64,000 bases of DNA, taken from positions 1 to 64,000 of the IMG/VR virus record IMGVR_UViG_3300046804_001132. The stretch is one strand, 5' to 3'. The DNA is from a virus. The notes beneath the pieces were generated by a model. It made no database searches, had not been told where the DNA came from, and saw nothing but the letters and a program-made list of their open reading frames with translations. The position numbers were made by a program, and so were the translations under genes. Shown here one piece after another: positions 51,954 through 51,995 of the stretch (position 1 is its first letter; the number at the start of each line of letters is the position of its first letter).

Positions 51954-51995
51954 GTTGATACATCTATTAGACGATGGTAAAATAGATGTATCAAC
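51954..51995 (+). repeat. Perfect 15-base inverted repeat over a -10 box
   Basis: GTTGATACATCTATT (51954-51968) and AATAGATGTATCAAC (51981-51995) are exact reverse complements with a 12-base spacer. The -10 box of the next gene (51978-51983) lies at the inner edge of the right arm, the position of an operator. It could also end endolysin transcription. Confidence 0.8.
51975..51983 (+). promoter_or_regulatory. Extended -10 promoter within the palindrome
   Basis: TGGTAAAAT; the start site would be near 51990 inside the right arm. AAAAGGAGGAAA and ATG at 52014 follow. Confidence 0.6.

Follow-up and report, generated by a model that had tools for sequence, protein, structure and literature searches.

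A palindrome over the promoter of a small phage gene may hide its ribosome-binding site in read-through RNA

The palindrome at 51954-51995 of the window (the whole stretch of 64,000 nucleotides analysed here) is a real and improbable structure lying on a conserved promoter. The RNA-level reading that fits it best is a masked ribosome-binding site, a possibility that the initial annotation had not considered. The region would serve both as the promoter and as the translation-initiation site of a 47-aa gene, with the promoter nested in a hairpin, and the origin of a transcript would decide its fate: RNA reading through from upstream would hide the ribosome site, and RNA from the gene's own promoter would expose it. 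We propose this gating by transcript origin tentatively, at somewhat less than an even chance, as a model drawn from sequence and predicted folds. The features discussed are collected in Table 1.

Table 1 Features around the palindrome and the 47-aa gene.
Feature	Position	Strand	Remarks
Endolysin-like ORF (M15-type peptidase-like, by eye)	51151-51927	+	presumed source of read-through transcripts
GlxR/CRP-like palindrome GTGGTATAAATCAC	51930-51943	+	7/8 consensus bases; ends 11 nt 5' of the -35
Left arm of the extended hairpin	51943-51968	+	CCTCT at its outer end (51943-51947) pairs with the Shine-Dalgarno GGAGG
Left arm of the reported palindrome	51954-51968	+	exact reverse complement of the right arm
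-35 box TTGATA	51955-51960	+	inside the left arm; position kept in relatives
Extended -10 TGG-TAAAAT	51975-51983	+	TGnTAnnAT kept in relatives
Right arm of the reported palindrome	51981-51995	+	overlaps the conserved initial transcribed sequence
Shine-Dalgarno AAGGAGG	52000-52006	+	GGAGG (52002-52006) predicted to be paired in read-through RNA
47-aa ORF	52014-52157	+	uncharacterised family in actinobacteria and their phages; invariant EIDAIF core
Second promoter TTGACT-17-TATAAT, TG before the -10	52159-52187	+	17-18 nt spacing kept in 25 loci
Second hairpin, enclosing the second promoter	52161-52203	+	-10 in the loop; covarying arms

The two arms of the palindrome are exact reverse complements over 15 of 15 bp around a 12-nt loop, and the -10 TAAAAT reaches into the right arm, as the initial annotation had described; that description was incomplete, since the pairing extends to 51943-52006. 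Perfect inverted repeats of at least 10 bp occurred at a mean of 2.35 per simulated window in 20 Markov simulations of the 64-kb window, and none of at least 13 bp was seen, which places the 15-bp palindrome far above chance. When 121 promoter-like sites in the 72-kb genome were scanned, only 51954-51995 showed such arms (15 perfect pairs; runner-up score 9), and it is the strongest repeat-overlapped promoter found. Judged by hairpin energy against random positions, two of 40 good promoter-like sites passed the 1% level, at 51978 and 52182. Outward from the reported arms, complementarity continues to give 26-nt arms (51943-52006, 85% complementary) that include the Shine-Dalgarno sequence, and the resulting hairpin is predicted to fold at -32.4 kcal/mol with the GGAGG of the Shine-Dalgarno paired. 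The predicted fold of RNA from 51928-52040 lies 5.5 sd below its shuffles, and that of the own-promoter transcript resembles its shuffles. A search for known RNA families returned tRNAs only. Two other perfect inverted repeats were noted in the window. One, of 13 bp (GGTGGGGTAGGAA, 44259-44310), follows the ORF at 43710-44252 and has an extended -10 (44316) and the next gene immediately 3' of it; the other, of 11 bp and G+C-rich (35355-35387), carries TTGACT at its left edge and lies in the gap before an ORF at 35418, DNA polymerase III alpha-like as named by eye.

Judged by its conservation, the promoter of the 47-aa gene is real. Its -10 (51978-51983) shares 3 nt with the right arm and stands at a 17-nt spacing from the -35, and the extended -10 sequence, TGGTAAAAT, runs into that arm. 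A GTGA-N6-TCAC-like site, TTGAyn-17-TGnTAnnAT and a leader ending in AAGGAGG are present in 27 of 33 non-redundant phage loci that carry the small gene, and the phage relatives keep a uniform order: GTGA-N6-TCAC, 11 nt (16 nt in one clade), TTGAyn, 17 nt, TGnTAnnAT and a leader such as GTATCAACCCACAAGGAGG. The spacing predicts a transcription start at about 51990, within the right arm, so the gene's own transcript would lack the left arm.

The site upstream of this promoter is conserved at two registers, that of the window in 16 of the 27 loci and one 5 nt farther upstream in 11. At either register, 26 of the 33 loci match 7 or 8 of the 8 GTGA/TCAC bases, against a chance expectation, at equal base frequencies, of about 0.0004 per locus per register for at least 7 of 8. 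Perfect GTGA-N6-TCAC sites number 21 in 226 kb of relatives, with about 20 of them at this promoter. The usual centre of class I CRP-type sites is -61.5, whereas the centre here, reckoned from predicted starts, would be -53.5 or -58.5. A conserved GTGA-N6-TCAC palindrome upstream of a promoter resembles a GlxR/CRP site, and the GlxR consensus TGTGA-N6-TCACA (PMC7999487) has all 8 core bases matched in about 20 relatives and 7 of them in the window. These matches suggest that the GlxR/CRP-like palindrome at 51930-51943 is the likelier regulator site, rather than the palindrome at 51954-51995, and that the promoter is probably under a host regulator of the CRP/GlxR type, whose identity we infer from the motif.

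The initial annotation had read the palindrome itself as the layout of a repressor operator and the region as a possible control point. The second part stands insofar as the promoter looks regulated and is a plausible place for control of the small gene's expression; an operator formed by this palindrome found no such backing. On that reading, a dimeric repressor bound to the 15-bp dyad, which does cover both promoter boxes, would block the promoter. A search for the half-site elsewhere, as had been suggested, covered the window and the remaining 8 kb and found no copy within 2 mismatches in the 72 kb, which leaves a dedicated repressor operator unsupported. About 30 relatives have the small gene but lack the palindrome, and neither it nor the leader-arm string AGATGTATCAACCCAAAAGGAGG was found in the viral contig collection. 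Across the relatives the right arm is ordinary conserved leader, already accounted for as such, and the left arm is present in the window only; the dyad is therefore a derived trait of this lineage rather than the promoter's conserved operator. Arms of 15 bp around a 12-nt gap are also long, the usual phage operators being shorter. Other dyads do lie near the -35 in some relatives: in one phage group (L031, L033, L038, L040-L044, L066, L078 and L157-L162), TTTGT-N9-11-ACAAA spans this promoter's -35 and is possibly a second operator. On balance, we regard a repressor operator at 51954-51995 as quite improbable. The helix-turn-helix frames proposed as binding partners do exist (31014-31556, an HTH_17 match below cut-off, and a small HTH-like frame at about 42885-43037, by eye), and the WhiB gene lies at 48929-49246.

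Masking of the ribosome site, the preferred reading, would work as follows. RNA entering from the endolysin-like gene would carry both arms and could form a stem of about 24 pairs in which the GGAGG of the Shine-Dalgarno is paired, and the small gene would be poorly translated from it. RNA begun at the predicted start would leave the ribosome site more open, and the level of the small protein would then track its own promoter and not the upstream read-through. The stop codon at 51927 lies 15 nt 5' of the left arm, so ribosomes leaving the endolysin-like ORF should not melt the stem, and a plus-strand terminator scan listed no terminator-like site between the two genes. Freeing the Shine-Dalgarno is predicted to take 6.7 kcal/mol in the read-through RNA versus 3.8 kcal/mol in the own-promoter RNA, in which the model still pairs the GGAGG partly with coding sequence despite the lower cost. 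If initiation scaled with opening, the difference of about 2.9 kcal/mol would correspond to roughly 100-fold. Compared with shuffled upstream sequence, occlusion of the Shine-Dalgarno in the read-through RNA reaches z = +4.4.

The restriction of the palindrome to this phage, on a right arm that is ancestral leader, also fits a by-product. Template switching is a possible origin of lineage-specific palindromes, and the left arm may be an inverted copy of the conserved leader, whose TATCAA has the -35-like TTGATA as its complement; a usable -35 would then have arisen by chance, with no selected structure. Against this, pairing extends beyond the perfect arms into the Shine-Dalgarno: when the outer left flank was shuffled with the 15-bp palindrome retained, the observed occlusion was reached in 6 of 300 cases (p about 0.02). 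We consider a by-product unlikely. Conservation of the masking across the gene family is weak, most relatives having no excess occlusion (mean z 0.9). It is strong in L047 (+6.2) and L031 (+3.4) and weaker in L057 and L045 (about +2), and comparable occlusion in only 3-5 of 29 relatives indicates that the gating, if it operates, is lineage-specific.

The neighbours of the palindrome are as the initial annotation gave them, a putative endolysin gene and a small gene with the strong ribosome site AAGGAGG. The ORF is called endolysin-like from an SxH...D...HxH-type pattern recognised by eye, and searches gave no family or structure hit for the ORF. A hairpin 15 nt past its stop codon could instead be a 3'-end element of the endolysin mRNA, one that terminates it, stabilises it or is an RNase III site, with the promoter overlap reflecting compaction; the junction at 52159-52203, where a covarying, terminator-like hairpin also encloses a promoter, would suit such a reading. 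At 51954-51995, however, the stem is A/T-rich, the right arm is followed by CCAAAAGGAGG and not by a T-run, the terminator scan did not list it, and most relatives have no hairpin at this position. An intrinsic terminator, with a G+C-rich stem and a T-run, was thus rejected, and with it the alternative named at the outset, that the hairpin is an RNA terminator only. A 3'-end element in the wider sense seems improbable.

The proposed arrangement resembles the leader of T4 gene e (and of soc, 49 and I-TevI), in which the Shine-Dalgarno sits inside a hairpin of long transcripts and the own promoter is encoded within the 5' arm, leaving its transcript without the structure, with about 100-fold repression for e (PMC3014915); in our case the start is a predicted one. 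Both lie in a lysis-region neighbourhood. The gated gene here would differ in encoding an uncharacterised 47-aa protein and not lysozyme, its promoter is of the -35/extended -10 type whereas that of T4 is the late promoter TATAAATA, and the structure is poorly conserved among relatives, although some relatives of T4 are also without the gene e structure (PMC3014915). The ESAS/SAS of cluster K mycobacteriophages offer a further parallel, as actinobacteriophage inverted repeats lying just 5' of a strong ribosome site; ESAS, however, occurs in several copies in each genome, which share 17-bp half-sites and come with a 13-bp SAS (PMC3203893), and the palindrome here is single with an unshared half-site.

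Directly 3' of the 47-aa gene lies a second element, conserved in 25 non-redundant loci, which is the better-supported promoter-in-hairpin of the two. Its arms vary by locus (CCCACC/GGTGGG, TCCACTCC/GGAGTGGA, GCCCACGA/TCGTGGGC and ATCCATGC/GCATGGAT) with pairing retained, and in most loci TGAC, part of the -35, has a GTCA farther downstream as its pairing partner. The automatic alignment misplaced the left arms, and with the arms re-registered by pairing before counting, a step that favours the pairing counts, 93.9% of cells in the 25 loci were paired against 41-47% in slid controls, and 41 cells carried double changes against 15 in shuffles; the fixed -35/-10 spacing is independent of this registration. 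Among the loci searched, the element was found solely behind the small gene, and in L040 about 0.6 kb is inserted between the two. Most likely it would halt incoming RNA polymerase in the manner of a terminator and provide the start of the next unit, a role put conditionally because the T-run is weak in most loci. A literature search on promoters inside terminators found nothing relevant. One design may serve both ends of the gene, with RNA folding only when it comes from upstream and its origin deciding on translation at the first site and on continuation at the second, a compact one-way valve that stops incoming transcription and starts new; we consider this possible but doubtful. Farther downstream, 52555-53052 encodes a pyrimidine dimer DNA glycosylase family protein (PF03013) with at least 597 relatives in viral contigs.

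Homologs of the 47-aa ORF were found at 49 viral loci and 68 genome-assembly loci. The assembly loci are mostly actinobacterial, many of them labelled Nanopelagicales or lake-derived, and some sit on contigs of 100-340 kb, which suggests that the ORF may be a host gene carried by phages. The ORF matched no Pfam, PHROG or NCBIfam model, a tblastn search with a homolog of the protein against named phages gave no match, and a DNA-level search found no named phage relatives. The phage is one of actinobacteria, probably freshwater ones. In the actinobacterial homologs L079-L124, the last 70 nt 5' of the small gene form a shared leader in which an invariant GGAG-N5-CTCC hairpin covers the Shine-Dalgarno and a further hairpin, CGGGGAGACCCCG-like, shows two covarying pairs; this leader had no match in Rfam.

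Gating of this kind is ordinary, with a known precedent in T4, and the conserved second promoter-hairpin is the more interesting neighbour. If the gating is true, T4-style shielding from read-through translation exists among phages whose hosts are lake actinobacteria, abundant and mostly uncultured, and the gated gene adjoins a conserved site resembling a cAMP-receptor-type operator. The conserved promoter-in-hairpin junction at 52159-52203 could serve as a compact insulating part.
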